This document shows, in pieces, positions 3,243-18,250 of a stretch of 36,320 nt of DNA; position 1 is the stretch's first letter; each line of letters begins with the position of its first letter. Under the pieces are notes generated by a model that had not been told where the DNA came from, made no database searches, and saw only the letters and a program-made list of their open reading frames with translations. This stretch comes from Tidjanibacter sp. (GTDB taxonomy: Bacteria; Bacteroidota; Bacteroidia; Bacteroidales; Rikenellaceae). The position numbers and the translations under genes were made by a program. The DNA lies in assembly GCA_017631375.1 (NCBI GenBank), contig JAGBTK010000059.1:1-36320 (forward strand). Direction: 5' to 3'.

Positions 3243-4652
3243 TCAGCGTTTGAAACAGGTCTTCATCTTGCGGGAGGGGCGGGTGAGCTCCTGCTCCACG
3301 ATAGCGGTAAGCACATCGGGGGCATCGTGCCAGCGGTTGGCGCGGAACTTACGATTGTACGAGAGCAGGTGTGAGGCTAACTCCGGCCAGCGATACTGCC
3401 AATCCGAGGGCATAGTAATCCTGCGCAACACCGTAGAGGCATTTGAGAGAATACGCGCCTCTTTGTTCGCGCTCTGGTGAAACCAGGTCACATTGGCCTC
3501 GGGGACAAGGCGCATCAGTGTACGCGCAAAGCCACGACCGCCATTGTTGCTCTCCACAACCACATCGCGTGTGCCTACGCGGCGGAGCATCTCGGCAGTC
3601 AGCTCCTCCGTGACCTCCATACGCTCTCGCGAATAGACCACATCCTCGACATAGATATCGCCATCAGCCCCCACCGAGTAGCAGACCGAGCAGAGGTGGT
3701 CGTCGCCCGTGTCTGCCGTGTCGGTATAGTTTGCCCTGCGCACAATATCCCTCGGCAGGCTCTCCCAAGTGCGAAACCTGTCGCCATAGAGCAGTCCCTC
3801 CTTATTGTTTGGGTTGCCCTGATACATAGCCTCAAATCGCAGAGGGTCGAGCTGACGCTTCTGCGCCAGAAGTGCTGCGCTGTGACGCTCCGGCCACAAG
3901 GCCTCATCAATGGCGCGAGGGTCTATCTCGGTGGCGGGGGACTCTTTGAGGGCTTGCAGGTCGAGCCTGAGCCACTCATCGGGCGAGGTATTCTCCAACT
4001 GACTCCACTCGGTGAGCGGTACAACCTTCTCGCGCGAGGAAATCAGCCCAATCAGATCCTCCTCGTGCCAACGAGTAAAGACAATAATCTCCTGCGAATA
4101 GTTGTGCAGGCGTGTGCGTATAACTGAGGTGTACCAATCCCAACAATTCTCGCGAATGACGGGCGAGTTGGCCTCCATAGCATCCTTGTAGAGGTCGTCG
4201 ATGATTACTACATCGACCGTGTTGCCCGTCAAAGGCCCCTCTCTGCCCACCGCTGTCAGGTCGCCCGAGTGACCGATAATCTCCACCTCTTCGGCAGTGC
4301 GCAGGTGAGAGCCTCGCGAGCCGGCACTCTTGATTGTGGTGTCGGGGAAGAGCGAATTGTAGGCCTCCGAATCTATGATGCGCTGCACTCGTTTGTTGAA
4401 ACGGCGAGCCAGTGAAGCACTATAACTCGCAATGGCAATATGCAGATCGGGGTTGAGCCCCAACATATAGGCGGGCAACAGCACCGACGAACCGAGCGAT
4501 TTGCCGTGCTGAGGGGGTATGGTTACCATCAGCCGTCGGATGCGTCCCTCAGCAAAGGCCTCCAATACACGATAGTAGGTGGTGTGGTAGGGCGAGAGCG
4601 TGAGGAAGGGCATTACGGTTGTGGCATACTCCGAAAAACTTCTCTTATCCAT
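3243..4652 (-). CDS. Phage terminase large subunit (packaging ATPase/nuclease)
   Basis: The protein has 469 residues and is the motor that drives DNA into a capsid and cuts it. The N-terminal ATPase domain shows Walker A PPQHGKS (46-52), Walker B VVIID-D (148-153) and the coupling motif FTRWHEEDL (192-200). The RNase H-like nuclease domain shows Asp in YTDTADTGDDH (~311), Glu in VVVESNNGG (367) and Asp in WHDAPDVLTA (443/446). All key acidic residues are present, so it should be active. I chose the ATG at 4652 (MDKRSFSEY); the longer frame to 4724 would overlap the preceding gene, which ends at 4673. It is transcribed away from the repressor and is separated from the other packaging and capsid genes by rnhB and a membrane-protein gene. 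That split is unusual, because terminase, portal and capsid genes normally sit together. Confidence 0.93.
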   Translation of the reverse strand: MDKRSFSEYATTVMPFLTLSPYHTTYYRVLEAFAEGRIRRLMVTIPPQHGKSLGSSVLLPAYMLGLNPDLHIAIASYSASLARRFNKRVQRIIDSEAYNSLFPDTTIKSAGSRGSHLRTAEEVEIIGHSGDLTAVGREGPLTGNTVDVVIIDDLYKDAMEANSPVIRENCWDWYTSVIRTRLHNYSQEIIVFTRWHEEDLIGLISSREKVVPLTEWSQLENTSPDEWLRLDLQALKESPATEIDPRAIDEALWPERHSAALLAQKRQLDPLRFEAMYQGNPNNKEGLLYGDRFRTWESLPRDIVRRANYTDTADTGDDHLCSVCYSVGADGDIYVEDVVYSRERMEVTEELTAEMLRRVGTRDVVVESNNGGRGFARTLMRLVPEANVTWFHQSANKEARILSNASTVLRRITMPSDWQYRWPELASHLLSYNRKFRANRWHDAPDVLTAIVEQELTRPSRKMKTCFKR

Positions 4653-4672
4653 ATATATAATAGGTATAAGAG

Positions 4673-4981
4673 TTAGTCTATAAACAGGCTCCTGAGGTAG
4701 CGGAACGAAAAGTCGTTCAGGCACTCCACGCCGTCAATTTTGGTGCTGAACTCCCACCACACGGGAACGATGTCGGTGATGTCGGCAGGCGAGGTGCCGT
4801 TGCGATAGACGATCAGCGCACTTGTCAAACTACACTCCATCTCGGGGTGGGGAATCGAAATCGTGCCACTGAACCATTGTTTGTCGTCGATAGCCTCGGC
4901 TAAGTGTCTAACCACCGAGGCGTAGAGTGCGGGGGTGATCTCCACTTCACGCACACCTTCTCTTTTTTCTCTCTCTTTCAT
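4673..4981 (-). CDS. Small conserved protein upstream of the terminase (unknown function)
   Basis: This 102-residue soluble protein starts 20 nt before the terminase and is probably co-transcribed with it from the leftward promoter at 5139-5170. The N-terminus is charged (MKEREKREG), followed by an alpha-beta segment (VEITPALYASVVRHLAEAID) and the pattern IVPVWWEFST. I do not recognise a named family. Position would allow a small-terminase or packaging-accessory role, but I see no helix-turn-helix, so that is only a guess. The leader from the predicted start site to the ATG is about 150 nt. Confidence 0.75.
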   Translation of the reverse strand: MKEREKREGVREVEITPALYASVVRHLAEAIDDKQWFSGTISIPHPEMECSLTSALIVYRNGTSPADITDIVPVWWEFSTKIDGVECLNDFSFRYLRSLFID

Positions 4982-5101
4982 AATCTGAACTTTTGTTTAA
5001 TTAATTAACTTAATAAATGCGCTTTAACTACTATTTCTTCACTCTTTTGATGAGTTCGGCACGGTTAATGAGTAAAAAATTAGATAGTTTCGTATGTTTT
5101 A

Positions 5102-5133
5102 TTTGGTTTTTATAAATAAATTGTTTATGTTTG
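5102..5133 (+). promoter_or_regulatory. Rightward promoter of the S24 repressor
   Basis: TTTG (5102-5105), a 20-nt spacer and TATGTTTG (5126-5133) match the Bacteroidota -33/-7 consensus exactly. The predicted start is near 5140, giving a leader of about 70 nt. It overlaps head-on with the leftward promoter at 5139-5170. Confidence 0.8.
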
Positions 5134-5138
5134 CAGTA

Positions 5139-5170
5139 CAAAGATAAGTTCAAAAAGTAGAATTGTCAAC
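5139..5170 (-). promoter_or_regulatory. Leftward promoter of the terminase unit
   Basis: On the minus strand, GTTG (5170-5167), a 20-nt spacer and TATCTTTG (5146-5139) form a near-consensus promoter. Its -7 box is only five bases from the -7 box of the repressor promoter. The two boxes form an inverted repeat, so polymerases bound here would exclude each other. Confidence 0.65.
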
Positions 5171-5211
5171 ATTAAAAGTTAAATAATTATACATTTAATT
5201 CGTAACTCATT

Positions 5212-5907
5212 ATGACTGAGCATGAAAAAAGCGTAGGAAGAAGGTTGAAGGAATTGCGAAGAGAACTTGATTGGACTCAGGATCAGTTGGCGAAATTGTT
5301 GGGAGTGGGTAAAGGTGCTATCTCAATGGTAGAGACAGGCAAGAGTGCGCTCTCCGAGCGAAATAAGCATATCTTGGTTCACGAACTAAATATGAACCCT
5401 GACTGGATTGAAACGGGTAAGGGCGAAATTTTTAACTCCCCTCGTGAGCAGGTGTTGAGCTTTCGCGCAATGACAGATCATAATCTGCCATATCAGTGTG
5501 TGCCTCTCTATGCTATGGAGGGAACTGCGGGCCTTGTGCCTCTCTTTGATGATGCGCAGGCGCATACCCCCGTGGATTATATCCATATCCCCAATATGCC
5601 CAAGTGTGACGGTGCTATCTATATTGTAGGCGACAGTATGTATCCCTTGCTTAAGAGTGGCGATATTGTGCTCTATAAGCAGTTGCAGCACATTGACGAT
5701 ATCTTCTGGGGCGATATGTATCTTCTCTCGGTGGATATCGATGGTGAGGAGTATGTTACCGTGAAGTATATTCAGAAGGCCGATCAGGATGGATATGTGC
5801 GTCTGGTGAGTCAGAATCCTCATCACGCAGACAAGGATATAGAGATTGAGCGCATCAGGGCTATTGCCTTTGTCAAGGCAAGTATTCGTATGAACTCGAT
5901 GCATTAA
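5212..5907 (+). CDS. LexA/CI-like repressor: XRE helix-turn-helix plus S24 self-cleaving peptidase
   Basis: The protein has 231 residues. Residues ~8-62 are an XRE/Cro-CI DNA-binding domain (LKELRRELDWTQDQLAKLLG, GKGAISMVETGK). Residues ~95-225 are an S24 peptidase domain with the nucleophile Ser142 in GDSM, the general-base Lys185 in TVKYIQK and a plausible self-cleavage bond Ala106-Gly107 in EGTAGL. The spacing resembles LexA (cleavage bond to Ser 36 residues, Ser to Lys 43). Proteins of this type bind operators as dimers and cut themselves in the presence of RecA-DNA filaments, so DNA damage would relieve repression. It lies between the terminase unit and the structural operon, so it is the obvious candidate regulator of both. 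A terminator follows the stop codon. Confidence 0.9.
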   Translation: MTEHEKSVGRRLKELRRELDWTQDQLAKLLGVGKGAISMVETGKSALSERNKHILVHELNMNPDWIETGKGEIFNSPREQVLSFRAMTDHNLPYQCVPLYAMEGTAGLVPLFDDAQAHTPVDYIHIPNMPKCDGAIYIVGDSMYPLLKSGDIVLYKQLQHIDDIFWGDMYLLSVDIDGEEYVTVKYIQKADQDGYVRLVSQNPHHADKDIEIERIRAIAFVKASIRMNSMH

Positions 5908-5920
5908 AATCGCAGTCTGA

Positions 5921-6056
5921 TAAAATGATTTCAGCCCCGCTATGTTGGCGGGGCTGAACTATTTTAAAAAGGATATGGGGAAGACTCCCGTCTGCCCCAT
6001 CTCATCAGGTTAGGTTAGTTAGGTTAATGAGGTACGGGAAGATTCCCGTATAACAT
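5921..6056 (-). ncRNA. Candidate structured small RNA, antisense-oriented downstream of the repressor
   Basis: A consensus leftward promoter (6062-6092) faces a stretch with no open frame that holds four stem-loops in series: TACGGGAA/TTCCCGTA (6033-6050), CTCAT/ATGAG enclosing AGGTT repeats (6001-6005 with 6027-6031), ATGGGG/CCCCAT with an inner GAC/GTC stem (5975-6000), and the G+C-rich terminator stem 5930-5958. The predicted transcript is about 130 nt and converges on the 3' end of the repressor gene. I do not recognise a known RNA family, and transcription is inferred from promoter and fold only. Confidence 0.5.
5929..5966. terminator. Bidirectional hairpin terminator of the repressor gene and candidate sRNA
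   Basis: TTCAGCCCCGC (5930-5940) and GCGGGGCTGAA (5948-5958) form a perfect 11-bp stem with a 7-nt loop. Short T-rich tails follow on both sides (CTATTTT to the right; ATCATTTT read on the minus strand), so it can end both the repressor mRNA and the leftward small RNA. The tails are weak compared with other terminators in this window. Confidence 0.75.
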
Positions 6057-6061
6057 CAATA

Positions 6062-6092
6062 CAAAGATAGAGTCTATTTTTAGATTTACAAA
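6062..6092 (-). promoter_or_regulatory. Leftward promoter of the candidate small RNA
   Basis: On the minus strand TTTG (6092-6089), 19 nt and TATCTTTG (6069-6062) match the phylum's promoter consensus. No open frame lies to its left before the repressor's terminator. Bases 6093-6211 are A/T-rich and hold nothing else I can support. Confidence 0.65.
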
Positions 6093-6211
6093 CATTTCTA
6101 ACTCTATTTTGGCACTTTTTTAATTTTTTAGTTTTGCCTTTTTCCGAGAGGGATATTTTTTAAAATTTTAATAAATGTTTGTAAGCGATTTATTAAAAAT
6201 TTTTAAAAAGG

Positions 6212-6246
6212 AAAACCGCCTCTAAATGCTCTCTGAGGCGGTTTTT
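6212..6246. terminator. Bidirectional hairpin terminator
   Basis: AAAACCGCCTC (6212-6222) and GAGGCGGTTTT (6235-6245) form an 11-bp stem with a 12-nt loop, with a T run to the right and an A run to the left. It should end leftward transcription from the membrane-protein gene. Bases 6247-6394 contain no further gene. Confidence 0.85.
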
Positions 6247-6394
6247 GAATTTCAAGACTCGTTCTTATTATTAAAATTCCCAACTTATAGGTGAGATTTA
6301 GTTATAGTTTGTAAGTGGATAACAAAAATCGAGAAAAATGTTAAATTTTTCTCAAACTCCCGTTTGATTCCGAATTTTCGAAAAAAAACGCACC

Positions 6395-7375
6395 TTAGAA
6401 GAGGATTGCGCCTATTGCCAAAACGATAAGCAAAAGGTAGCTGATCAGTGTGATGATGTGCGGCCAGCGGGCGAAAAAGAGGTGGGCGATGACGGCAAAC
6501 CCGCACGCAAACATAGCATAAAAGTAGGGGTTGGGCTCTGTGTAAAAGAGCATAGTCAGCGCGCCGACTGCAATAAGGGTGAAGTGCCAATTGATCTTCT
6601 TGGGGCGTGTGCGTATACTCGAGTCGGCAACTAAGAGCGAGAGGATCGAGCAGAGGATGAGCAGTACCATAAAGGCGAGCAGAAGGCCCTCGCTGAGTCG
6701 CTCCAGAGTGAAGAGTTCGGCAATGCGAAATTCGCTGCCGTTGGTGGTGGGCAGGTGTTCGCTGAGTGTGACAGCCACGCTCTGCTCTCCAAACAGCCAC
6801 CACAACCAGGTACACAAGACGGTAGGAAGTACCATACCACCTATACCTGCCAGCCACTCACGCGGGGTGCGCTCATAGATAGGCATCATCAGGAGTGAGA
6901 TGAGTGCTATGGGCAGAGCCGCAGGGTAAAGTAGCGGGATGATGCCGATAAAGAAGTATCCCTCAAAGACCGGAGCGAAGATTAGGGTGCGCTTGAAGCT
7001 GTGAATCAGGCGGCTTGCTCCTATCAGGAGTAGCATTGCAGTAAGTTGCGGGATGGTCGAACCTGTCTGTACCGTTGTGGCGCAGGCGGCTATGGTGTAG
7101 AGTACCATAGGCACAAAGGAGCGCACTACAGAGGCTGAGTAGCGGGTTACGATGCGGGCGGCAAGCAGGGAGTTGACAATGATGAGTAGGGTGGCTATGG
7201 CTGCGCCAAAGAAGGAGCCTGTACCTCCGAAAAACCTCTCGATAGCCTCTGCAGTCGGTGTGGCCGCAGCTATCGCTTCGTGCTGGCCATAGGTGGCTAC
7301 CACACCGCAGAGCAGGAGTGCTCCTTCGGTGAGAAGTATTATGGCTGCGGGCTGTTTGAGGATATCTGTCTTCAT
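6395..7375 (-). CDS. Multi-pass inner-membrane protein (DUF6427-like)
   Basis: The protein has 326 residues with about nine to ten hydrophobic segments, among them AAIILLTEGALLLCGVVA near residue 10, the run after FFIGIIPLLYP, and a hydrophobic C-terminus. Short charged loops join them and there is no catalytic motif I can name. It resembles the uncharacterised DUF6427 membrane proteins of Bacteroidota, which are ordinary chromosomal genes. It is transcribed away from rnhB and sits between the two halves of the phage-like cluster, so its location is notable even if its function is unrelated. The start ATG at 7375 is the first in frame. Confidence 0.75.
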   Translation of the reverse strand: MKTDILKQPAAIILLTEGALLLCGVVATYGQHEAIAAATPTAEAIERFFGGTGSFFGAAIATLLIIVNSLLAARIVTRYSASVVRSFVPMVLYTIAACATTVQTGSTIPQLTAMLLLIGASRLIHSFKRTLIFAPVFEGYFFIGIIPLLYPAALPIALISLLMMPIYERTPREWLAGIGGMVLPTVLCTWLWWLFGEQSVAVTLSEHLPTTNGSEFRIAELFTLERLSEGLLLAFMVLLILCSILSLLVADSSIRTRPKKINWHFTLIAVGALTMLFYTEPNPYFYAMFACGFAVIAHLFFARWPHIITLISYLLLIVLAIGAILF

Positions 7376-7424
7376 TGTCTGTTGTTTTCGCCTTCAAAAA
7401 TAGTACTTTTTTCGCCAAATTCCC

Positions 7425-7432
7425 TATTTTTG
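7425..7432 (+). promoter_or_regulatory. -7 element for rnhB
   Basis: TATTTTTG matches TAnnTTTG and lies 21 nt before the rnhB start codon, so the leader would be about 15 nt. No good TTTG lies at the -33 distance. Confidence 0.5.
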
Positions 7433-7453
7433 CACTATCAATTCTTGGGATAA

Positions 7454-8053: not shown

Positions 8054-8198
8054 TCCTCTTGTTTTTGGTTCTGCTCGGGTTGGCTTGTTGTGATAATGAG
8101 TCGGCAATGCGTGTATGCTTTTGGCTCGGATAGAGAAGATGGGGAAAAAAAGTTGAAATTATTTTTGGTAGAAAATCAGATATTTAGTTCAGAAATTA

Positions 8199-8214: not shown

Positions 8215-8230
8215 AATTATCATTTAGGTC

Positions 8231-8261
8231 TTGACAAAGCAGAATTTAGGTTGTATATTTG
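8231..8261 (+). promoter_or_regulatory. Promoter of the capsid-particle structural operon
   Basis: TTG(AC) at 8231 and TATATTTG (8254-8261) are spaced by 20 nt from the end of TTG, matching the Bacteroidota consensus. The predicted start is near 8267, giving a leader of about 48 nt before the first gene at 8315. No other consensus promoter was seen up to 18126, so this one may drive the whole operon. Confidence 0.8.
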
Positions 8262-8314: not shown

Positions 8315-8725
8315 ATGCTGCGTCAGACCATTATTTCATCCATTGGGCGAGCGGCTGAGGCTCTCGGCTACTCGTTCCAGCCCCCAACAGCGTGTGCGCC
8401 CAAAGCACAAATTACCCAACTCCCTGCTGCCACAATTGCTCCGCTACGAATCGTATCTACAGAGGGGCGAAAAGAGCCGCGAGTAACCTATCGTGTAGTG
8501 CTCTCGCTCCTCTCGCCATGTAACTTTGCCAATGCCGACCGCGAACCTCTTTGGTCGGTGATGGAGCGCGATGCTATTGAAATATACCGAGTTATGGAGT
8601 TATCGCCTATGGTGTGTGCTGTCTCCAACTTCTCGGCAACACCCTCTTCACGCCCTCTTACCCGCTTCGGTGACTGCTCCCTGCGAGCAGAGTTCGACAT
8701 TGAGGCAATCTACTGCATTGAGTAA
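8315..8725 (+). CDS. Small phage structural-type protein (possible tail completion/connector)
   Basis: This 136-residue soluble protein is the first gene of the structural operon. It begins with a short helix (MLRQTIISSIGRAAEALGY) and continues with a beta-rich core (VTYRVVLSLLSPC, MELSPMVCAVSNFSATP, CSLRAEFDIEAIYCIE). The size, the ring-forming-type alpha/beta layout and the place before two larger tail-like proteins suggest a tail terminator or neck component, but no diagnostic motif is visible. The next gene starts 18 nt later. The call rests mainly on context. Confidence 0.65.
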   Translation: MLRQTIISSIGRAAEALGYSFQPPTACAPKAQITQLPAATIAPLRIVSTEGRKEPRVTYRVVLSLLSPCNFANADREPLWSVMERDAIEIYRVMELSPMVCAVSNFSATPSSRPLTRFGDCSLRAEFDIEAIYCIE

Positions 8726-8743
8726 CAAAACCCCCCATTGATT

Positions 8744-9739
8744 ATGATTGAAATTTTGCTGCCCGAGAACTATTCATCGGCCTACACAGGTGCACTCTAC
8801 TCTATTGACAAGGCCTCTAACTCCGACCCCTATGTGGTGGAGGTGATTGACAGCGCCAAGAGAGAGACGCTGGGCTTTCGTAGAGTTCAATTCCTGAATA
8901 ACAACCGTATCAACATTGCCCGCTACCTGTCGCGTGTGCTCAATCCGCAACCTCTTCACGCGGAGAGTGGCTGGGTGTTGCCCGAGGGGCGTAGCGTGGA
9001 GGCGCAACTGCTGATAGATGACGAGTTTACACCAAGCCGTACCTTTACCGCCTCGCTCACCAATCTGACCGGAAATATGCTCCTCTCCAAACTCACTCAC
9101 CGCACCGTTACGCCTCACGACATAGATGAGATTTCGCTCTTTGCCGAGCCGGGGGTGATTAAAATTAAGGTGGCTGTTGACTCGGAGAAGACATACCGTC
9201 AGCCAATCTCGGAGTACAACCACAGCGGCGGACTTATCACCTACAACTTTGATGTGATGAGCGCGATGCGAAAAGGGTATGATCCTGAGGAGGTACGCCG
9301 TTTCTGGCTCTATATTACCCTGGAGAACAAAGAGATAGCTTGCTTGCGATACTCCGTTATCCCTATCACCTCCCAGAGCGTAAGGCTCGGCTGGCTCAAC
9401 CCCTACGGAGCTGTCGATTACCACACATTCCGCTCGCTTGGCCGACTGCTCCGCACCGAGAAGGATAGGGTTGTGAGGGGCAGTAGTGTGCAGAGGGTGA
9501 GTACTGTTCGCTCGACCTATGTCTGGGAAGAGGTGCTGAGTAGCGGCTACCTGCCGTTGCAGAGTGCAACAGCGATGAGTTCCCTCTTCTCTTCGCCCAG
9601 AGTGTGGCGCATTGAGAATGGTGAGGCGCAACTTGTGGATGTGACCGAGGAGATGGTGACGGTGAGCGATGAGGAGCAGCTCTCAACACTGAGATTCTCG
9701 GTGCGCGATGCGGAACCACACCAAACCCAATTTTTCTAA
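8744..9739 (+). CDS. Tail/baseplate-type structural protein (unknown family)
   Basis: This 331-residue soluble protein lacks a signal peptide or membrane segment. I chose the ATG at 8744 (MIEILLPENYSS) over an upstream TTG at 8738. It is beta-rich with alternating hydrophobic strands (RVQFLNNNRINIARYLSRVL, VIKIKVAVDSEKTY, GGLITYNFDVMSAMRKG) and a repeated-module look. Position 18 nt after gene one and 48 nt before a 791-residue companion suggests a virion appendage component. I do not recognise the family by motif; homologues are to be expected in phages of Bacteroidota. The frame is intact and uses codons like its neighbours. Confidence 0.7.
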   Translation: MIEILLPENYSSAYTGALYSIDKASNSDPYVVEVIDSAKRETLGFRRVQFLNNNRINIARYLSRVLNPQPLHAESGWVLPEGRSVEAQLLIDDEFTPSRTFTASLTNLTGNMLLSKLTHRTVTPHDIDEISLFAEPGVIKIKVAVDSEKTYRQPISEYNHSGGLITYNFDVMSAMRKGYDPEEVRRFWLYITLENKEIACLRYSVIPITSQSVRLGWLNPYGAVDYHTFRSLGRLLRTEKDRVVRGSSVQRVSTVRSTYVWEEVLSSGYLPLQSATAMSSLFSSPRVWRIENGEAQLVDVTEEMVTVSDEEQLSTLRFSVRDAEPHQTQFF

Positions 9740-9787
9740 CATCCGCAACCTATCAGAGTTTTTAAAATAATTTAAAAATACAATGCA

Positions 9788-12163
9788 ATGGCAATTCAAC
9801 TCTATATAGATAATCGCCCGGCAGATATCGACAATCGCACCCGCATTGCGATTACTCTTTCGCTCGGAGCACTCACCAAACCTGAGGAGAGTGCGACGGG
9901 TTATACCAAGAGTATCTCGATCCCTGCTACACCCGCCAACCGCGCTCTGATGGGGGATAGCGAGCAGCTCCACTCGTTGCCTCTCTTTGGTGCGCACCAC
10001 CACAGTGCCCGTATCGAGGAGGAGGGATTTGTCCTTATCGAGGGGCCGATGCGACTTCTCGAGAGTACGATCGGTGGCGAGGAGAGATATCGTTTCAACA
10101 TTCTTGGCGCGTCCTGCGATTGGCTCGCATCGGCACGGGAGTCGCTCGCATCGCTCGCCATAGAGTATGAAAAGGTGATTAACTCCGCAACCATCGCACA
10201 AAGCTGGACCGAGAATGGTACTCCAGTTCGCTTTCTCCCCGTGCGTCGCGACCTCTACACAACGGAGATTGACAGAGGTGTGGATATCTATCCTCCGGCA
10301 CGAGTGCTGACTGTGAACGACTACCACCCATTCCTCCACATTGCTACTATGGTTGAGAAAATTTTCGAGGAGGCAGGCTACTCGGTGGAGTCCCGTTTTA
10401 TGCGTAGTACACTCTTCCGTAGCCTCTATATGAGCGGCTATTTCTCTGAGCGAGATGTGAGTCTGCTTGTGGCGGCTATGGATTTTCGTGCCTCGCGCTT
10501 CAAGTCGGCTACTGCAGTGGCTGAGCACGAGGGCAGAGTCTATTGCACACCCCTGACCAACTATCCCACGATAGGCAATCTGGTCGATACCGCCTCGCTC
10601 TCTGCCACCGATGAGGAGGGCAATAGAGCCTACGATGTCTATGACAATGGCGGCTGCTTTGGGACTGACGAGACGGGACGAGTGATGTTCAAACCCCTTG
10701 AGGAGGTGAGCGTGAGCTTTAAGCACTACTTCCACTATCTCACGGACTACCGTATGAAATCGTCGAAGGAGCTTGTGGGCTTTGACACTATCCGACTTGA
10801 CGAGGACGACACGCGCAAGTTTACCATTCTCAATCCCTTCCCGGATCGTAAGGAGGAGATAAACAGCGGTATGGAGTACAGAGTGGTGGTCTTTGGGGCG
10901 TCGGAGAGTGCGCACCACCTCTTGGTAGGCAGAGAGAGTCTGGATGATGGCTCAACCCGTTCGGTCACTCTGGCCGACTTCTACGGCGAGGAGGCACTCT
11001 TCATCTCCAACACTACCACAGGTAAGTTGCACGACATAGTGCTGTATCAAGGTGGGGATGTTTACAATGGCGATTGGGCAATCTACAACAGCTATATTGC
11101 CACACGCGGGCAGCGCGAGGTGAAGATTACCCTCACTGGACGACGAAAGAGTGCTACTGGTGGTGACCCTGTCTACTTCGATTTGATGTGTTTCGAGGGG
11201 GCAGAACCGGGTATGTCGCTCACCCTTCTGCCCGATACCTGCATCACCCCTATCTTCAACCCTCATCCAGGGGAGGGGAGCGAGATAGAATTTGCCGATG
11301 TGGCACGCCATAACTGCTCACGACTCGACTTGCTTGCCGCTCTCAGACAGATGTTCAACCTCCGCTTCTACACCGACGCTATCGCCCGTAAGGTGATTAT
11401 TGAGCCGTTAGATGACTTCTATAACTATCATACGGTGAATTGGAGCGACAAGGTGGACTACAACTATCCCATTGTGGTTGAGGAGGCAGGCAAGAGCGCA
11501 CCGCATACCGTGGTGTGGCGTTATCGCGAGGGCGATGGTGCAGTGGCACGCTACGACTCGGCACAGGGTGTAGTGCTGGGGTGTTGGGAGGCGACAGTCG
11601 ATAGCGCATCAATCTCTACAACGCGCTCGGTGAGTGTCAACCCCCTCTTCACCCCCTCGCTGAGTCAGCCCTGCTCGTTGCAGGGGTCGCCCTCGGCAAC
11701 CCTTATATCGGTGGGTGACAGACAGAGGTTGGTGCGAGGTGGCGATAGCCTAAATTTTCCTGCTAAGGTGGTGATATATAACGGTATGGTCCGTCTGCCC
11801 GAAGGCGAACAATGGGACTGGCCGAGTTATGGCGACTACTACCCACACCTCACCTTTCATAGCCCTGAGCAGGGATGGACACTCGGATTTGAAGACCGTG
11901 ACGGGGTGACAGGCCTGCACTCCCGATGGGATTCGACAGTCGATATCCTCTCCCACGCCCGCAGGGTGATACTCTATCTGCATCTTACGCCGACCGATGT
12001 TGAGCCTCTGGCGATGCCCGACAGATTGGCAGACGATTTTCGCGCGCTCTACACTCTTACGATTGATGATGAGCCGGCTCTCTATCGTTTGGAGGAGGTG
12101 TGCGACTATAACCCCGAACAGCCGTCGGTAAAGTGTAAGTTTGTGCAAGTGCTTAAAGTATAA
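9788..12163 (+). CDS. Large tail/baseplate-type structural protein, 791 residues
   Basis: This is the largest protein of the cassette. The N-terminal ~110 residues (MAIQLYIDNRPADIDNRTRI... ATGYTKSISIPATPANRALMG) resemble the N-terminal segment of baseplate or receptor-binding-associated proteins of phages infecting this phylum. The rest is beta-rich, with a block around residues ~540-600 (LLAALRQMFNLRFYTDAIARKVIIEP) that looks like a tail-hub 'late control/gpD-like' segment. There is no signal peptide, collagen repeat, coiled coil or long hydrophobic helix, so it is not a tape measure. The assignment to the tail is an inference from size, order and these resemblances. Confidence 0.7.
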   Translation: MAIQLYIDNRPADIDNRTRIAITLSLGALTKPEESATGYTKSISIPATPANRALMGDSEQLHSLPLFGAHHHSARIEEEGFVLIEGPMRLLESTIGGEERYRFNILGASCDWLASARESLASLAIEYEKVINSATIAQSWTENGTPVRFLPVRRDLYTTEIDRGVDIYPPARVLTVNDYHPFLHIATMVEKIFEEAGYSVESRFMRSTLFRSLYMSGYFSERDVSLLVAAMDFRASRFKSATAVAEHEGRVYCTPLTNYPTIGNLVDTASLSATDEEGNRAYDVYDNGGCFGTDETGRVMFKPLEEVSVSFKHYFHYLTDYRMKSSKELVGFDTIRLDEDDTRKFTILNPFPDRKEEINSGMEYRVVVFGASESAHHLLVGRESLDDGSTRSVTLADFYGEEALFISNTTTGKLHDIVLYQGGDVYNGDWAIYNSYIATRGQREVKITLTGRRKSATGGDPVYFDLMCFEGAEPGMSLTLLPDTCITPIFNPHPGEGSEIEFADVARHNCSRLDLLAALRQMFNLRFYTDAIARKVIIEPLDDFYNYHTVNWSDKVDYNYPIVVEEAGKSAPHTVVWRYREGDGAVARYDSAQGVVLGCWEATVDSASISTTRSVSVNPLFTPSLSQPCSLQGSPSATLISVGDRQRLVRGGDSLNFPAKVVIYNGMVRLPEGEQWDWPSYGDYYPHLTFHSPEQGWTLGFEDRDGVTGLHSRWDSTVDILSHARRVILYLHLTPTDVEPLAMPDRLADDFRALYTLTIDDEPALYRLEEVCDYNPEQPSVKCKFVQVLKV

Positions 12164-12181
12164 CTATTTACACATTTAACT

Positions 12182-12547
12182 ATGATGGAAACAATTACTG
12201 TTTACTCCTCGGCAGAGTCGGGGAGCGTGGAGGTCGTATCTCTGCCTGCAGAGGAGAGTAGCGTCACTCCGTCACCAATCAGTGTGGAGAGCAGCGGTGT
12301 CGAGAGGTGCGTGGAGAGGCGAATGAGCGTGGAGCAGCGTCCGAGCCTTGAGCAGCGAGTGAGTGCGGACAGGAGGGTGGTTAAGGTCAGCACAGAGAAC
12401 CCTGAGCCAACATTCCACATCACCCTTGCACAACTCAGCGAAGCAATAGCTTCGGCACTACGCTCGGTGAAGATCTATGTTGTCGAATCGGAGATTACCG
12501 AGGCCCAGCGTGCGGTGCGTGCTGTGGTTGAGGAGAGTCACTTCTAA
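12182..12547 (+). CDS. Small structural-associated protein with Ser/Glu/Val-rich centre
   Basis: The protein has 121 residues. Its first ~75 residues are low complexity, rich in Ser, Glu and Val with repeated VES/VER/VEQ units. The C-terminal part (FHITLAQLSEAIASALRSVKIYVVESEITEAQ) is ordered and ends RAVRAVVEESHF. The ending of the type 'VYVVESEITxAQxxVxxxxxxxxF' is one I associate with small proteins in structural clusters of Bacteroidota phages, of unknown role. It lies 18 nt after the 791-residue gene and 14 nt before the next. Two ATGs (12182, 12185) are equally possible starts. Confidence 0.7.
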   Translation: MMETITVYSSAESGSVEVVSLPAEESSVTPSPISVESSGVERCVERRMSVEQRPSLEQRVSADRRVVKVSTENPEPTFHITLAQLSEAIASALRSVKIYVVESEITEAQRAVRAVVEESHF

Positions 12548-12561
12548 CATCACCGGTGGCT

Positions 12562-12840
12562 ATGAGTACATATGAGAGATGGCTGCTCAGAATGGTTGAG
12601 CAAGAGTTGCCACGCGCTGCCACTAAGAGGGAGATTATGGAGTGGCTATCCGAAAAGGGAATCACCGATACCACAAATTGCCGACGAGTCGTGCTGAGCG
12701 ACTTTGTCGAGCAGGAGTGCTGCAGAGATAGAAGGGTCGGCAAAATAGATGCAATGCAGCGAGCTGCAGAACACTTCGGCTGTAGCTATGAAACGGTGCG
12801 CAACAGCATCTATTACAAACCAACAGGGAGTGAAAAATGA
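12562..12840 (+). CDS. Small helix-turn-helix protein within the structural operon
   Basis: This 92-residue protein starts at the ATG at 12562 (MSTYERWLLRMVEQELP); a GTG six bases upstream is possible. The C-terminal segment RAAEHFGCSYETVRNSIYYK has the shape of a helix-turn-helix (A-x-x-F-G-x-S-x-x-T-V-R). The middle carries two helices (TKREIMEWLSEKG; RRVVLSDFVEQECC). It sits between structural genes and the protease. The cassette has no annotated small terminase, and small terminases carry N- or C-terminal DNA-binding helices, so this is a possible candidate. A transcriptional or replication-type accessory is equally possible. Confidence 0.65.
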   Translation: MSTYERWLLRMVEQELPRAATKREIMEWLSEKGITDTTNCRRVVLSDFVEQECCRDRRVGKIDAMQRAAEHFGCSYETVRNSIYYKPTGSEK

Positions 12841-12856
12841 GAAAATTGTGATTGAA

Positions 12857-13672
12857 ATGAGAGATGAAAGAATCAAAATCCGCGCGGGACTATTCTCGCT
12901 CTCGGTAGATATCGAGGGTACAATAGGAGTTCCGGAAGCGGAGCAATTCGCAAATGAGGAGGAGAGGGTGGCGACCTATGAGAAATTTCGCACCTGTCTT
13001 ACCCGAATTCGCGAAAGTAATGCCCGCCACATAGTGGTTAACATACGCTCTACGGGTGGCGATGTAGAGGATGCGCTGCTTATCTACGAGGCGCTGCGTG
13101 AGTCGGGATGCAAGGTGACCACTCGTTGCTATGGCTATGTGGCCTCGGCTGCGACAATCATTGCACAGGCTGCCTCGCCCGGTCGCCGACAGATTGCCCG
13201 CTCGGCACTCTACCTTGTCCATCGCTGCCACAGCTTGTGCGAGGGCAATGCCGAGGAACTGAAGGCGACGCGCGATATGCTGGAGGCGACAGACCACCGA
13301 CTTGCTACCATCTATGCCTCGCGCTCGGGGCGTTCGACAGATGAGATGCTTGCCCTGATGAGCGATAATGGCGGTCGTGGCCGTTGGCTCTCGCCTGAGG
13401 AGGCGGTGTCACTCGGGCTGGCCGATAAGGTGATTGGCGACCGACGAGGCGATAAGGGTGGTGTGGCTGCAAGTGTAGTGCTCGATGAGAGTCTGCCCCC
13501 TCTCCCTGCCAAGCAGAGCGAGGAAGTGCCTGGCGAGGTGCAGGGCAGGGGCTTTATGGAGGCTCGCCCCACAAGCGTTGAGGCAGTGGAAGATCCCTCG
13601 CCGACAGAACGCAGACTATCTGCCAATCAGGTGGCATATATAAATGATGCACAGGTGATTAGCGACAGATAG
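12857..13672 (+). CDS. ClpP/S49-like prohead maturation protease
   Basis: The protein has 271 residues. I chose the ATG at 12857 (MRDERIKIRAG), 16 nt after the preceding stop codon; the open frame reaches further left but over the neighbour. The fold is ClpP-like: NIRSTGGDVEDAL (64-73), catalytic Ser97 in GYVASAATI, His122 in YLVHRCHS, and the closing GLADKVIG motif with its Asp. A flexible C-terminal tail (~60 residues, Pro/Glu-rich) follows. Such enzymes process scaffold and capsid proteins during prohead assembly. It lies 48 nt before the major capsid gene, the usual protease-capsid order. The C-tail might serve as scaffold. Confidence 0.85.
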   Translation: MRDERIKIRAGLFSLSVDIEGTIGVPEAEQFANEEERVATYEKFRTCLTRIRESNARHIVVNIRSTGGDVEDALLIYEALRESGCKVTTRCYGYVASAATIIAQAASPGRRQIARSALYLVHRCHSLCEGNAEELKATRDMLEATDHRLATIYASRSGRSTDEMLALMSDNGGRGRWLSPEEAVSLGLADKVIGDRRGDKGGVAASVVLDESLPPLPAKQSEEVPGEVQGRGFMEARPTSVEAVEDPSPTERRLSANQVAYINDAQVISDR

Positions 13673-13720
13673 ACGCAAAAACAACCAATAATTATTAAAA
13701 ATTTTTAAAAAGTATTAAAA

Positions 13721-14938
13721 ATGGCTAAAATCGAAACAATTAAGAGTTACACAGGTCACGATTTGGAGAATATCTTTTTCCGTCCTATGTTGACGGGTCC
13801 GAGTGCTGATGAGTTGGGTATCAAGGTGATGTATAATATGCCTGTTCCCACCACGCTCCACTTCTGGAAGCGTTCGGGCGATGTCCTCCACAAGTTTGAC
13901 AAGGCGGGCTGGGTTGGCTCGGCAGCTGCAAACAAGTTCCAGAAGACCTTGGATCTTAAGCGAGTGAAGGCAGAGGTGGGCTACTCGGCAGAGGACTACT
14001 TCTCGATGGTCTATGAACTTATCACCGCCAGCCCCGATGTCAATATGGAAGATCTCTCGGGCACCGAGCTTGAGGCTGCCGAGACCGCACTCTTCAAGCA
14101 GGATATCGCTGAGGGAATCCGTACCACTATGTGGCTGGGTAATACCGAGCGCGAGGGGTTCTGCAACACCTTCGATGGATTCCTGAAACATATTACCAGC
14201 GACCTCCTCTCGGGCGACAACGAGATCAAGACCGTGGGCTTCAAGAAGCAGGATCCTGATTGGGCATCGAAACTCTTTGCCGATATGTGGAATAAGTCAA
14301 CTGAGCAGTTGAAGGCACTCAAGAGCGAGGGTAATCTCGCGCTCTTTGTAAGCTCGGATGTCTATGCTCAGTATGAGAACGAGCTCAATAGCGCAGACTA
14401 CGAGTCGGCATACATCGCTCGTCAGGACGGCCGCACTCAGCTCCACTATCGTGGTGTGCCCATCGTGGATTTGCAGTTGGGCGGCTACTACGACCGTATT
14501 GATGACCTGCCCACCTCGTTTGCCATCTTTACCGATCGTCGCAACCTCGCACTGGCTGTCAATACCAGCGACTTCCCCGGCACTGAGGTTAAGATGTGGT
14601 ACAATCCCGACCAGATGGAGAATCGCCAGCGTGCTGTCTTTATGGCAGGTTGCGACTATCTGTTGCCAGAGCTTGTGACCTTTGCTTCCTGCATTGACCT
14701 GACCATCAACGCAACTGTAGAGCCCGAGCTTGTCTATGTGGAGCTGGTACCTGCTGAGGGATGCAGCATCCACCATATGAAGATAGTTGCCTACGACAAC
14801 GGTAAGGTTTCGGACACAACCGATATCCCCGGCAATGAGGCGTATGGCGAGTATGAGTACGAGGGTACAAATATGACAGGCGTACTCGTATCGACAACCT
14901 TTATGAACGGTATGACCGTAGATCAGCTCTTTGAGTAG
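13721..14938 (+). CDS. Major capsid protein (HK97-fold type)
   Basis: The protein has 405 residues and follows the protease in the classic order. The features fit the HK97-type capsid family of Bacteroidota phages: N-terminal helical region (ETIKSYTGHDLENIFFRPM), E-loop/P-domain segment with GTELEAAETALFKQDIAEGIRTTMW (~115-140), and the closing strand region (YRGVPIVDLQLGGYYDRIDDLP, NLALAVNTSDFPGTEVKMWYNPD, AVFMAGCDYLLPELVTFA). From about residue 325 an extra ~80-residue beta-rich, Tyr/Glu-rich region is appended (YVELVPAEGCSIHHMKIVAYDNG). The start region is extremely A/T-rich (TTAAAAATTTTTAAAAAG...), suited to high translation. It is a capsid by pattern and context. Confidence 0.8.
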   Translation: MAKIETIKSYTGHDLENIFFRPMLTGPSADELGIKVMYNMPVPTTLHFWKRSGDVLHKFDKAGWVGSAAANKFQKTLDLKRVKAEVGYSAEDYFSMVYELITASPDVNMEDLSGTELEAAETALFKQDIAEGIRTTMWLGNTEREGFCNTFDGFLKHITSDLLSGDNEIKTVGFKKQDPDWASKLFADMWNKSTEQLKALKSEGNLALFVSSDVYAQYENELNSADYESAYIARQDGRTQLHYRGVPIVDLQLGGYYDRIDDLPTSFAIFTDRRNLALAVNTSDFPGTEVKMWYNPDQMENRQRAVFMAGCDYLLPELVTFASCIDLTINATVEPELVYVELVPAEGCSIHHMKIVAYDNGKVSDTTDIPGNEAYGEYEYEGTNMTGVLVSTTFMNGMTVDQLFE

Positions 14939-14942
14939 GCGT

Positions 14943-15458
14943 ATGGCTTTGAGTGGATTTGCCCGCGCGTGCGCAAGGCGTAACGGCGGAATAGAGAAGA
15001 TAGGTCTGTTGAAAGCTGCCGATATATCCTCGGTGGAGTATGATGCAAGCGGCGACCTGTTTACCTCGCTCTCGCTCAAATCCGGAACTGCCATTGCTGT
15101 CTATCAGTTTGATGAGGATAGTGCGGAGTACAATGAGATACATCGTCGCACAGATGGCTCCTACTCGGTGGAGCATCGCCTAACTATGTCGCTCGGCAGA
15201 TTCGATGGCTCGTCACGCGAGGCCGTTGAGGAGATAGCCCTTAGCTCGGAATGTGGCGTGGTGGCAGTGGTGCGCACCTGCTCGGGAGAGGAGTTTGTGG
15301 TGGGCTACTCACAGGAGTTCGGTACAGAGCGACCTCTGCGTCTGATCTCAAGCGAGGCTACGACAGGTGCCAAACCATCGGACGCTACTCTGCGCAAACT
15401 GACACTCGGCTCTCTCGATACAGCTTCGGCGAGGGTGTTGGCAAACGGAGTGCTCTAA
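14943..15458 (+). CDS. Virion structural protein, possibly tail tube-like
   Basis: The protein has 171 residues and begins 4 nt after the capsid stop codon (ATG 14943; an upstream TTG at 14931 would overlap). It is beta-rich: ISSVEYDASGDLFTSLSLKSG, SVEHRLTMSLGRFDG, SECGVVAVVRTCSGEEFVVGYS, then TTGAKPSDATLRKLTLGSLD. The last pattern, a Thr-Gly-Ala-K-P-Asp loop before a final strand, recalls tail-tube proteins of long-tailed phages, but this is not diagnostic. An intrinsic hairpin follows at once, so the capsid and this gene may be made in excess of the downstream portal, as expected for tube and capsid subunits. Confidence 0.7.
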   Translation: MALSGFARACARRNGGIEKIGLLKAADISSVEYDASGDLFTSLSLKSGTAIAVYQFDEDSAEYNEIHRRTDGSYSVEHRLTMSLGRFDGSSREAVEEIALSSECGVVAVVRTCSGEEFVVGYSQEFGTERPLRLISSEATTGAKPSDATLRKLTLGSLDTASARVLANGVL

Positions 15459-15464
15459 TTGAAA

Positions 15465-15503
15465 TCCCCTTCGGAGGGGTAGCCTTCCGAAGGGGAATTT
15501 TTT
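15465..15503 (+). terminator. Internal hairpin terminator/attenuator within the structural operon
   Basis: TCCCCTTCGGA (15465-15475) and TCCGAAGGGGA (15486-15496) form a perfect 11-bp stem with a 10-nt loop, followed by TTTTTT (15498-15503). It lies between the capsid/tube-like genes and the portal gene. With no consensus promoter seen before the portal, read-through is needed to express portal, connector, holin and lysin. Confidence 0.88.
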
Positions 15504-15525
15504 AACATTAACACTTTTACAGATA

Positions 15526-16755
15526 ATGGATAATAAGAAGGTAAATTATTCGGCTAAACTTTTTACTCCGCGCAGCTCGGCACAAAATCCGTTTATGCCG
15601 GTGGTGAGGAGTGTGTCGGACAATCGCTTCTGGCGTTGGGGTGATGACAACCTCTTCCCCGTTGCGCTCAGTCTGCTGGCACGGCAGAGTACCACACACC
15701 GCCGAATCATCAACGACAAGGCAGACTACATCTCCGGCAAGGGGCTCACTTGTGACGAGGGGTTGCCACATATCACCTCGCTGATCAAGTGCGCCAACCC
15801 GACGGGCGATACCCTGCGTAGTGTGCTCAACCGTTTGGCGATGGACAAGGCACTCTTCGGAAATGCCTTTGCTGAGGTGGTGACAGATGCAGAGCGCACC
15901 TTTCTGGCACTCTTCCATCAGGATGCCTCGTTGTGTCGCCTCTCGCGTGACGGGGAAGGGGTACTGCTCCACCACGATTGGAGTCGCTCCTCGTCAGGAG
16001 AGATGAAGTATCTGCCTCTTTTCCCCGCCTTTGCTGAGGGTGAGGACGGCAAACTACACTCAATAATCCACTACAAGGATTACGAACCGATGTTCTCACA
16101 CTATGGAGTACCGCCCTACATCGCAGGACTTGGCGTGTCGACAATCGCCTATAAGACAGATCGTTGGAATATATCGCGATTGGACAACTCCTTCCAGCTC
16201 TCGGGTGTGATGATGCTCGATGGCGGTGTGGATAATGACCAGCAGGCGGAGGAGTTGATGCGCTCGGCACAGCGTAAGTTTGCGGGGCAGCCCGGACAAG
16301 TGATGTTTATGATTAAGGATTGCTCGGATGGGGACTCGTCCCGCTTTATACCCATCACATCGACCAACGAGGGTGATTGGCGCGATCTGCACGATCAGGC
16401 GACAGGCGATATTGTCGTTGCCCACTCGTGGTTTCGATCCCTGAGCGGACTCGACTACGGCAACGGTTTCAATGCAGACCGCATCATTCACGAATACGAG
16501 GTGGCACTCAATACGGTGATTCTCGGTGAGCAGGCCGAGCTGCTGGAGCCTATCAAGGAGGCGATAGAGCTTGTCTGGGGCGAGGATGCCTCGTCGCTCA
16601 CCATCATCAATCAGCCACCCTCGCGCAGCAAACCCCTGTATATGAAGGTGTGGGAGGCAAGGCGTGCGGATGGTCTGGACTATGATCCTGACGACCCCGA
16701 ACAGCAGCTCTATGTGGCTCAGGTGACTAAATACGGACTTCAAAATGTTGGATAG
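15526..16755 (+). CDS. Phage portal protein
   Basis: The 409-residue portal forms the twelve-fold ring through which the terminase packages DNA. The family pattern is visible: DNLFPVALSLLARQSTTHRRIINDKADYISGKG (residues ~40-70), NRLAMDKALFGNAFAEVV, and the later PYIAGLGVSTIAYKTDRWNISRLDNSFQLSGVMML with QAEELMRSAQRKFAG, then the stem-like ALNTVILGEQAELLEPIKEAI. Length is a little short but normal for portals of this phylum. It follows an internal terminator and is separated from the capsid gene by the tube-like gene, unlike the usual terminase-portal-protease-capsid order. Confidence 0.87.
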   Translation: MDNKKVNYSAKLFTPRSSAQNPFMPVVRSVSDNRFWRWGDDNLFPVALSLLARQSTTHRRIINDKADYISGKGLTCDEGLPHITSLIKCANPTGDTLRSVLNRLAMDKALFGNAFAEVVTDAERTFLALFHQDASLCRLSRDGEGVLLHHDWSRSSSGEMKYLPLFPAFAEGEDGKLHSIIHYKDYEPMFSHYGVPPYIAGLGVSTIAYKTDRWNISRLDNSFQLSGVMMLDGGVDNDQQAEELMRSAQRKFAGQPGQVMFMIKDCSDGDSSRFIPITSTNEGDWRDLHDQATGDIVVAHSWFRSLSGLDYGNGFNADRIIHEYEVALNTVILGEQAELLEPIKEAIELVWGEDASSLTIINQPPSRSKPLYMKVWEARRADGLDYDPDDPEQQLYVAQVTKYGLQNVG

Positions 16756-16757
16756 CG

Positions 16758-17225
16758 ATGGAGAAAAAGATGATTACGGCTGAGGAGGTTGTGGAACTCG
16801 CCTTTGGTGGCGATGCACATCTGGATAGGGCGAAAATATCGGAAGGGGTTATCATTGCGGCACAGAATAAGTTTATCCGCCCCGTTTTAGGAGTGGTATA
16901 TGATTTGGCACACACTGCTCCCTACGCAGCATTTGTCAACGAGTGGGTTAAGTTGCCCCTTGCGCTCTATATCAAGTGGCTTTTGCTGCCCGAACTGATT
17001 GTTGAGGTGGGGGCGTCGGGTGTTGTGGTGCGCTCGTGCGAGGACTATGTGAGTGCCTCCTCGCAGCAACTCCGAGTGATGATGCAACGACTGCGCTCGG
17101 AGGCTGAGGCACTGCTGGACAGAGCGGTTGAGGAGCTCGAAAAGAACGCTTCGCTCTACACTGCCTACTCCGCGAAAGATAATGTGCGCTGCCGCACCCG
17201 AATAGTTGGCGGAGTGGTGATTTAA
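16758..17225 (+). CDS. Head-tail connector-type protein
   Basis: The 155-residue, mainly helical protein starts 2 nt after the portal stop codon (translational coupling likely). It has MITAEEVVELAFGGDAHLDRAKISEGVIIAAQNKFIRPVLG at the N-terminus and a long helix (SSQQLRVMMQRLRSEAEALLDRAVEELEKN) at 105-135. The size, helix content and place after the portal match gp6/connector proteins (DUF6712-like) of this phylum's phages. The function is by context; no catalytic motif is seen. Confidence 0.75.
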   Translation: MEKKMITAEEVVELAFGGDAHLDRAKISEGVIIAAQNKFIRPVLGVVYDLAHTAPYAAFVNEWVKLPLALYIKWLLLPELIVEVGASGVVVRSCEDYVSASSQQLRVMMQRLRSEAEALLDRAVEELEKNASLYTAYSAKDNVRCRTRIVGGVVI

Positions 17226-17252
17226 CTTTTTTACTAAACAAACAGAAATAAG

Positions 17253-17720
17253 ATGAAAACGCTAATTGAGCAAAAATGTTTAAAAATTGCAAGTGGGGTG
17301 GTGGCGGGATGTGCAGGGCTCTTTGCGCCTGCCGTGCCACTGATGATGGCTGCACTGATGTTTATGGTGGTTGACTTTGTGACAGGTGTTCTGGCCGACC
17401 GAAGGATTGCGCAGAGCAACGAACAAGAGTGGCACTTTGAGAGTCGCAGGGCGTGGTGTAGTGTGAGGAAGATATCGCTGGTGATGGTCGGAATCGTGAT
17501 GGCTTCGGCTCTTGACGGCATTCTGGCTGGAGTAATCGGAGTGGATATTGCCAAGATATACACAGGCTTTGTTTGCGGAGTGGAGTTCTGGAGCTATCTC
17601 GAAAATGCCTCAGTACTCTCCGATAAGAAACTATTTCGCTCGCTGCGCAGTTTGGTTGGCGACCGACTGAGAAAAGTGACGGGCGACACTGTAAAAATCG
17701 GTGACAATGGGGCAGAGTAG
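17253..17720 (+). CDS. Phage holin (holin_4 family-like)
   Basis: The 155-residue membrane protein has about three to four hydrophobic segments: residues ~13-45 (ASGVVAGCAGLFAPAVPLMMAALMFMVVDFVTGVLAD), ~75-98 (LVMVGIVMASALDGILAGVIG) and ~105-122 (YTGFVCGVEFWSYLENASVL). The D-F-V-T-G-V-L-A-D motif and the basic tail are typical of Phage_holin_4 proteins, which open the inner membrane so that the endolysin can escape. Its last codons overlap the lysin gene by 14 nt. Retention of a holin means that particle release by lysis is plausible. Confidence 0.85.
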   Translation: MKTLIEQKCLKIASGVVAGCAGLFAPAVPLMMAALMFMVVDFVTGVLADRRIAQSNEQEWHFESRRAWCSVRKISLVMVGIVMASALDGILAGVIGVDIAKIYTGFVCGVEFWSYLENASVLSDKKLFRSLRSLVGDRLRKVTGDTVKIGDNGAE

Positions 17721-18126
17721 GGGGCTTAGGAATAACAATCCGGGCAATATCCGCCATTCGGCAGGCGTTACTTACCTCGGAGAGATTAAAGGTGCGGACA
17801 AGGAGTTCCGCACCTTTCGAACAATGAGTTTGGGCTATCGTGCAATTTTTGTGGTGCTGCATACCTATTGTCTGCGCTACGGTATCCGTACCCTCCGCGA
17901 GGCGATAGAGCGTTGGGCACCACCCACCGAGAACAACACTTCGGCCTATGTCGGGTTTGTTGTTCGTGAGAGTGGCAGGAGCGAGAACGAGCCATACGAC
18001 ACTCTCTCGGCAGAGGATATGATACCGATTGTGGAGGCTGTTTCGAGGATGGAGAATGGTGTGAGTGCTGTGGCTGAGGAGGTTGCTGAGGGGTGGTGGC
18101 TTTTTCATAAGGACTACAAGAGGTAG
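17707..18126 (+). CDS. Endolysin/structural protein P5-like (GLRNNNPGNIR family)
   Basis: The 139-residue protein starts at the ATG at 17707, overlapping the holin. The motif GLRNNNPGNIR at residues 6-16, followed by FRTFRTMSLGYRAIFV and ERWAPPTENNTSAYVGFV, is shared with a family annotated in Bacteroidota prophages as 'structural protein P5' or muramidase-like, and with lysozyme-like proteins whose R-N-N-N-P-G-N motif is part of the fold. The typical catalytic Glu is not obvious to me, so peptidoglycan cleavage is likely from the family and the holin neighbour rather than shown. It ends the operon; a G+C hairpin (18122-18139) overlaps its stop codon but lacks a T run. Confidence 0.7.
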   Translation: MGQSRGLRNNNPGNIRHSAGVTYLGEIKGADKEFRTFRTMSLGYRAIFVVLHTYCLRYGIRTLREAIERWAPPTENNTSAYVGFVVRESGRSENEPYDTLSAEDMIPIVEAVSRMENGVSAVAEEVAEGWWLFHKDYKR

Positions 18127-18248: not shown

Positions 18249-18250
18249 CG

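Follow-up and report, generated by a model that had tools for sequence, protein, structure and literature searches.

The stretch of DNA analysed here (the window) is a whole 36,320-base contig from a draft Tidjanibacter sp. genome (1.6 Mb, 85% complete; Rikenellaceae, Bacteroidota). It carries two viral modules, a repressor–large terminase (rep/terL) module at positions 3243–5907 and a head/tail/lysis operon at 8315–18126 (9.8 kb), which we interpret as the two loci of one domesticated Rikenellaceae virion system that likely produces gene transfer agent (GTA) particles. The sequence-only reading of the window had suggested a domesticated particle such as a GTA. A domesticated, vertically inherited particle is well supported, whereas the packing and delivery of host DNA, which would make it a GTA in the strict sense, are what we infer. 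Persistence in nearly single copy, mostly as two unlinked pieces, along a whole family tree is not what one would expect of a prophage, and it is this pattern that argues for domestication.

Distribution and inheritance of the two modules

In a set of 60 genomes that included the window's own, the portal gene was found in 33 and the TerL gene in 32. The 36 Rikenellaceae genomes of this set carried both genes in the same 32, and the 24 genomes from other families of the order gave no TerL and a single portal match (28% identity). Searches of 160 Rikenellaceae genomes, again including the window's own, detected the portal in 141 and TerL in 144 (E ≤ 0.001, with partial and some distant matches counted). 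Among the 102 high-quality genomes, 98 had the portal and 98 had TerL, with both present in 96, neither in 2 and one alone in 4 (Fisher p = 0.007; joint counts, here and for the full set, derived from the listed absences). The corresponding table for all 160 genomes (138/6/3/13) gives p = 3e-12, a value inflated by incomplete genomes.

Portal and TerL are nearly always present as one close copy per genome, the second copies listed being a portal in G020 (62%) and a TerL in G080 (56%) (G and L numbers are our handles for genomes and for loci or contigs). Further TerL proteins of 35–47% identity occur in at least five genomes among the matches listed, with the patchiness expected of true prophages. 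On contig C1 of G030 (about 1.59–1.61 Mb) a second TerL (35% identity) lies ~12 kb from a TMP_3 (PF20155) tape-measure gene; this region is probably an ordinary prophage and provides a contrast case.

The portal, TerL and rpoB trees were compared for the 21 genomes that carry all three genes. Of 18 splits, 11 were common to portal and rpoB, 10 to TerL and rpoB and 11 to portal and TerL, whereas shuffled labels gave about 0.2 common splits on average and never more than 3. Mantel r values were 0.84, 0.85 and 0.89, and none of 2000 permutations reached values as high. G031 and G033, which are without both modules, form one clade at the unresolved base of the family in the rpoB tree, which either a single gain after the split or a single loss would explain. 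The comparison of related genomes thus agrees with what the sequence-only reading had anticipated of a domesticated element: the system is near-universal in the Rikenellaceae, nearly single-copy and has trees that track rpoB.

The detected operon genes have identical order and strand in all 80 named loci (those kept of 150 portal coding stretches in a scan of a species genome collection). The record titles name Rikenellaceae, Alistipes or Tidjanibacter for 79 of these loci and no more than "Bacteroidales bacterium" for one; the nearest portal relative is from Tidjanibacter sp. RGIG6250 (90% identity), and Alistipes sp. dk3624, whose genome is complete, is one of the carriers. Linkage between the modules was measured in ten assemblies of at most five contigs, and portal and TerL were 18 kb to 2.6 Mb apart in seven (G030, G064, G092, G099, G122, G129 and G183) and less than 3 kb apart in three (G035, G072 and G084). 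In G035 and also in G029, terL is located immediately 5′ of the protease, capsid and portal genes, an arrangement that may represent the ancestral order.

Pattern scans of the IMG/VR viral collection returned three portal and eight capsid matches on nine distinct contigs, eight of which are 4–13 kb pieces of the head/tail/lysis operon. The ninth, L134, is different and phage-like, with a portal 31% identical. None of the portal matches in 50,697 phage records covered 80% of the query, and the nearest phage TerL proteins (46% identical) are those of Bacteroides fragilis phages such as B40-8 and B124-14. The portal and g3, a gene of the same operon, are matched by two human faecal scaffolds without annotation, L264 (MT838805.1) and L265 (MT838736.1), both titled "Bacteriophage sp.": in one the match is the end of a portal lying at the edge of the scaffold (68%, covering 22% of the query), and in the other it is g3 at 36%. 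These scaffolds may carry host-encoded GTA-like genes and not phage.

Gene content, selection and regulation

The features of the two modules in the window are as follows (coordinates, strand, assignment).

3243–4724, −, TerL, large terminase with ATPase and nuclease (PHROG 38, head/packaging, E 2.4e-84; PF03237)
4673–4981, −, small protein between rep and terL; no family match; adjoins terL in 27 of 30 terL loci
5212–5907, +, rep, repressor of the XRE/S24 self-cleaving type, divergent from terL (PF00717, E 5e-14; PF01381)
8231–8261, +, head/tail operon promoter, TTGACA-N17-TATATTTG
8315–8725, +, g1, 136 residues; conserved family without database match; possibly a neck or tail-terminator protein
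8738–9739, +, g2, 333 residues, structural candidate; conserved family without significant match
9788–12163, +, g3, 791 residues, predicted tail/baseplate hub fold with a C1q/TNF-like insert (about residues 225–492)
12182–12547, +, g4, 121 residues; present in a subset of relatives
12556–12840, +, g5, 94 residues, small helix-turn-helix-like protein (by eye; PHROG 27644 only, E 0.0014)
12749–13672, +, head maturation protease of ClpP/S14 type (PF00574, E 2.4e-28; PHROG 94, E 1.2e-37)
13721–14938, +, g6, major capsid protein, 405 residues, HK97 fold by predicted structure
14931–15458, +, g7, 175 residues; many relatives keep it between the capsid and portal genes
15526–16755, +, portal protein (PF04860, E 2e-10; PHROG 11226)
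16758–17225, +, DUF6712 head–tail connector candidate (PF20459, E 1.8e-9)
17253–17720, +, holin (PF05105, E 1.4e-9)
17701–18126, +, lysin-like protein (PHROG 873, E 5.7e-38; without Pfam match)

The true start of the protease is probably 3′ of 12749 because its open reading frame (ORF) overlaps g5. The Pfam and PHROG matches substantiate the intact terminase, protease, portal, connector, holin and lysin-like genes that had been recognised by eye, as well as the repressor with its self-cleavage domain. The capsid assignment also held, through a weak PHROG match (E 4e-8) and a predicted structure that supports the HK97 fold, with modest Foldseek TM-scores (about 0.3–0.56 among the matches shown). 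The capsid profile had no match at E ≤ 1 among PDB chains, which included the capsid of the alphaproteobacterial GTA RcGTA; what the two capsids share is the fold only. For the genes earlier described as tail-type the outcome was divided: g3 is predicted to adopt a tail-hub fold, its Foldseek matches alone being weak (best E 1.3e-5), while searches of PHROGs, Pfam and PDB sequences returned nothing significant for g1 and g2. Database searches gave no identity for a g0-like upstream gene, g1, g2, g4 or g7.

Two features were seen beside the repressor–TerL module in relatives. L210 and L213 have an extra gene 5′ of terL, small-terminase-like by eye, that was not seen in the window's module, and in G016 an N-acetylmuramidase endolysin gene adjoins the module (L200:8713–9339; PF11860, E 9e-68), with a homologue in L199 (G013).

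The genes are under purifying selection, as had been proposed for a domesticated particle. Median ratios of nonsynonymous to synonymous substitution (dN/dS) ranged from 0.06 to 0.40 for the 16 genes with close pairs, 14 from the particle system and two from the host. The pairs kept had dS of 0.05–0.7 and dN <0.5 and are not independent; with dS allowed up to 1, short and fast-evolving genes, g7 among them, reached medians as high as 0.97. Medians were 0.10 for TerL (6 pairs), 0.25 for the portal (278), 0.28 for the protease (75), 0.29 for the lysin (69) and g3 (46), 0.32 for the holin (95), 0.36 for the DUF6712 protein (72, three of them >0.9) and 0.40 for g2 (14) and the capsid (227). The particle genes evolve faster than host metK (0.08, 9 pairs); rnhB also gave 0.08 (1 pair).

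The residues that we take to be the TerL Walker A, Walker B and nuclease aspartates are kept in 30–31 of 31 sequences. In G085 (C3:18495–20006) and G109 (C31:6285–7778) the TerL match is in two pieces ~130–150 bases apart; each is one open frame (734 and 718 residues, respectively), possibly carrying an in-frame insertion. Single stops are seen in many portals; a reading of them as decay was rejected for the three genomes checked, in G027 and G029 as no stop lies inside the tblastn match and in G028 as the stop falls only at residue 370 of 372.

The operon promoter reported from sequence is present at 8231–8261, and its TTGACA-N17-TATATTTG arrangement agrees with what we take to be the Bacteroidota consensus. 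The motif TTGA-N17..22-TAnnTTTG precedes g1 in 17 of 28 upstream regions versus 0.18 expected from shuffles. Wherever the repressor was detected it is on the strand opposite to terL, and S142 and K185, presumably the S24 serine and lysine, are kept in 27 and 28 of 28 repressors, respectively. A 14-mer operator search 5′ of rep gave nothing above chance. A 15-mer palindrome, picked by eye after the sequences had been seen, is found 5′ of rep in 22 of 27 cases at ≥9 of 12 letters (shuffled mean 3.5, maximum 9). In the head promoters it shows a slight excess (8.2 vs 7.2), with a null that is unfair because the promoter itself resembles the palindrome.

Chromosomal setting and comEC

The stretch between the two modules holds a membrane-protein ORF (6395–7375) and rnhB. 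To the right of the operon is a SAM-II riboswitch (18247–18307; Rfam RF01726, 52 bits), which precedes metK and marks the operon's right border, followed by metK and other genes. The earlier listing of housekeeping genes at the edges is corrected for metK, which carries this riboswitch of its own, and the label "DUF6427-like" given to another gene found no support, the best Pfam match being to DUF6057 (29.1 bits, below the 29.8 cut-off). Pfam searches of the ten right-hand ORFs at 22385–35642 assigned nine to host-type families (including Wzz, SLBB, thymidine kinase, MatE and peptidase M3), left one without match and revealed no integrase or replication gene. The scanned ORFs in the rest of the window likewise gave no integration, replication or further tail genes, in keeping with the initial impression; the replication-gene search was confined to the window, the first 0.8 kb of which lay outside the scan. 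The sole tRNA of the window (Leu, 35660–35742) is 17 kb away.

An integrase survey of ten genomes (201 PF00589 matches in all) revealed none within 10 kb of portal or TerL among the matches listed. The nearest of these are ~20–23 kb from the portal (G129, G122 and G030), with roughly 13–16 kb remaining to the operon edge. Since packaging genes and head genes mostly lie apart and the searches detected no genes for integration or replication beside them, the locus could hardly be mobile as a phage.

In 18 loci the recognisable flanking ORFs are host genes (rnhB, corA, rimP–nusA–infB neighbours, thymidine kinase and others), and several stayed without a name. Within 5 kb upstream, corA was found in 20, an mqnA-like gene in 17 and rnhB in 9 of the 39 loci with at least 2.5 kb of sequence; within 5 kb downstream, comEC was found in 20, nusA in 9 and metK in 1 of the 72 named loci with enough sequence. 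In these counts corA, mqnA, nusA, rimP and infB were named by eye, comEC by PF03772 (E 4e-47 in L078) and the rest by tblastn. The rnhB–metK position that the window suggested as a family-wide location is rejected by the rnhB (9/39) and metK (1/72) counts.

A comEC match is present in 22 of the 80 named loci. In 18 of the 22 it is on the same strand and directly 3′ of the last detected operon gene (L076, L078–L080, L082–L084, L088, L089, L093, L096, L107, L108, L111, L113, L121, L126 and L129), with a gap of 34–35 bp in nine loci and a chosen start that overlaps the operon in two; in the remaining comEC loci, two genes are farther off and two are on the other strand. It is possible that the particle genes and this DNA-uptake gene share one transcript. 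RcGTA recipients require ComEC to take up delivered DNA, according to the available portions of PMC10883770 and PMC6209664.

Mechanism, rival explanations and known systems

The machinery probably packs the host's own DNA rather than a virus, and a GTA is the kind of domesticated particle that best suits the data, since few genes are as well kept as TerL and the portal, and in view of comEC. In the mechanism we propose, the S24 repressor would hold terL, and perhaps the head operon too, off until damage or stress causes its self-cleavage. The operon would yield heads of HK97 type that carry a short tail capped by the hub, TerL would load them with fragments of the host chromosome, and the holin and lysin would lyse the cell. 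The freed particles would then bring DNA to relatives, with uptake via ComEC. We consider the chances evenly balanced for the more specific proposal that this is an ancient Rikenellaceae GTA of independent origin, which combines a damage-responsive packaging module with a head–tail–lysis operon and in some Alistipes is cotranscribed with comEC, coupling it to uptake.

Several observations weigh against a GTA. Particles, host-DNA packaging and transfer are predicted here from the genes. Tape-measure genes were sought with two families in nine genomes, including the window's own: PF10145 matched in four (two over the cut-off) and PF20155 in two (both over it), with neither family matching in four, the window's own among them, and the over-cut-off matches, located in three genomes, were not linked to the particle system. 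Because the known tail set is incomplete and no tape measure is tied to it, DNA delivery is uncertain. Moreover, g1–g3 were not detected within the 20 kb around the portal in G035 and G029, nine of the 160 genomes (some of which are incomplete) have only one of portal and TerL, and the trees conflict in places, with G028, for example, changing position. Three disruptions look real in their assemblies: the portal of G006 is split, the TerL of G028 has an internal stop, and that of G027 is broken into two pieces and contains stops. The chromosomal position differs across the family, neighbours recurring only in groups of loci, and the operator link from rep to the head operon is weak, post hoc and suggestive only.

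The main rival explanation, which we regard as unlikely, is a domesticated particle that transfers no genes, either a PBSX-like killer that packs host DNA or an empty or cargo-loaded capsid. Retention of the tail hub, holin and lysin would suit such a particle, as would the failure to find a full tail gene set, and the available text of PMC7667829 provides PBSX as a precedent. However, the intact TerL ATPase and nuclease motifs in most genomes indicate that DNA packing is selected, and the adjacency of comEC points to uptake.

It is improbable that the system is simply a lineage of ordinary or cryptic prophages that is very common in the Rikenellaceae. The genes are clearly viral, some copies are broken, terL directly precedes protease, capsid and portal in G035 and G029 as in a phage, and a prophage survey, in the part available (PMC10841027), describes species of Alistipes and other genera in which nearly all strains carry prophages, hardly any of them complete. 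Yet the modules are mostly unlinked, co-occur, track rpoB and are nearly always in one close copy; their recognisable flanks are host genes, with no integrase nearby among the matches listed, and their genes are under purifying selection. The patchy 35–47% TerL proteins among the matches listed behave as true prophages should, and the pattern scans of IMG/VR gave only three portal and eight capsid matches, with eight of the nine contigs being operon pieces. A satellite-like element of the capsid-forming phage-inducible chromosomal island type that packages itself would fit the small number of genes, which include a capsid and a terminase of the system's own, but is highly improbable given that integrase and replication genes were not found (integrases: among the matches listed) and that self-packaging could not carry both modules when they are mostly unlinked (18 kb to 2.6 Mb, 7/10).

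Returning to the GTA interpretation, we found no report of a Rikenellaceae or Alistipes GTA in the open-licence PubMed Central (PMC) literature, outside which most subscription papers lie. Two articles contain both "Alistipes" and "gene transfer agent"; the subject of one of them, PMC4568480, is, as far as the available text goes, unrelated to a Rikenellaceae particle. The available part of PMC12946183 gives the characterised GTA lineages as Rhodobacterales, Bartonella, Caulobacter, Desulfovibrio, Brachyspira and Methanococcus voltae, plus Faecalibacterium; it reports 25 GTA-like events, two without a stated family, and names no Bacteroidota GTA, only lateral transduction in Bacteroides. As far as our searches show, the system described here would be the first GTA in Bacteroidota within the open-licence literature searched. 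Characterised GTAs are known from few lineages, and a Rikenellaceae GTA, if true, would provide a capsid-borne path for chromosomal gene exchange in gut Bacteroidota. It might also account for the near-universal "incomplete prophages" in some Alistipes species, and the question of repeated GTA evolution and retention by selection would become testable in culturable gut anaerobes.

Compared to RcGTA and the other alphaproteobacterial GTAs, the Rikenellaceae system has a capsid without sequence match to that of RcGTA and a different gene order. PBSX of Bacillus subtilis resembles it in being a domesticated particle with lysis genes, and has a full contractile tail and a single locus. According to the available text of PMC7667829, PBSX packs random host DNA that is not transferred. 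In L134 the portal is 31% identical and the next gene occupies the position of DUF6712, but the contig is phage-like and has other genes; phages of this type are perhaps the ancestral kind. For phage B124-14, the portion available of PMC3338817 describes the closest terminases as coming from gut Bacteroidetes, including B. fragilis and Alistipes. The closest layout is that of FpGTA from Faecalibacterium, as presented in the accessible part of PMC12946183. FpGTA belongs to another phylum, while in the Rikenellaceae the unlinked module consists of rep and terL, the lysis genes are in the head operon, and the system is family-wide and known here through its genes only. The two are nevertheless alike in that FpGTA combines a ~10 kb head operon with a second, unlinked operon, has a gut commensal as host, is present in all twelve Faecalibacterium genomes examined there and is probably short-tailed.

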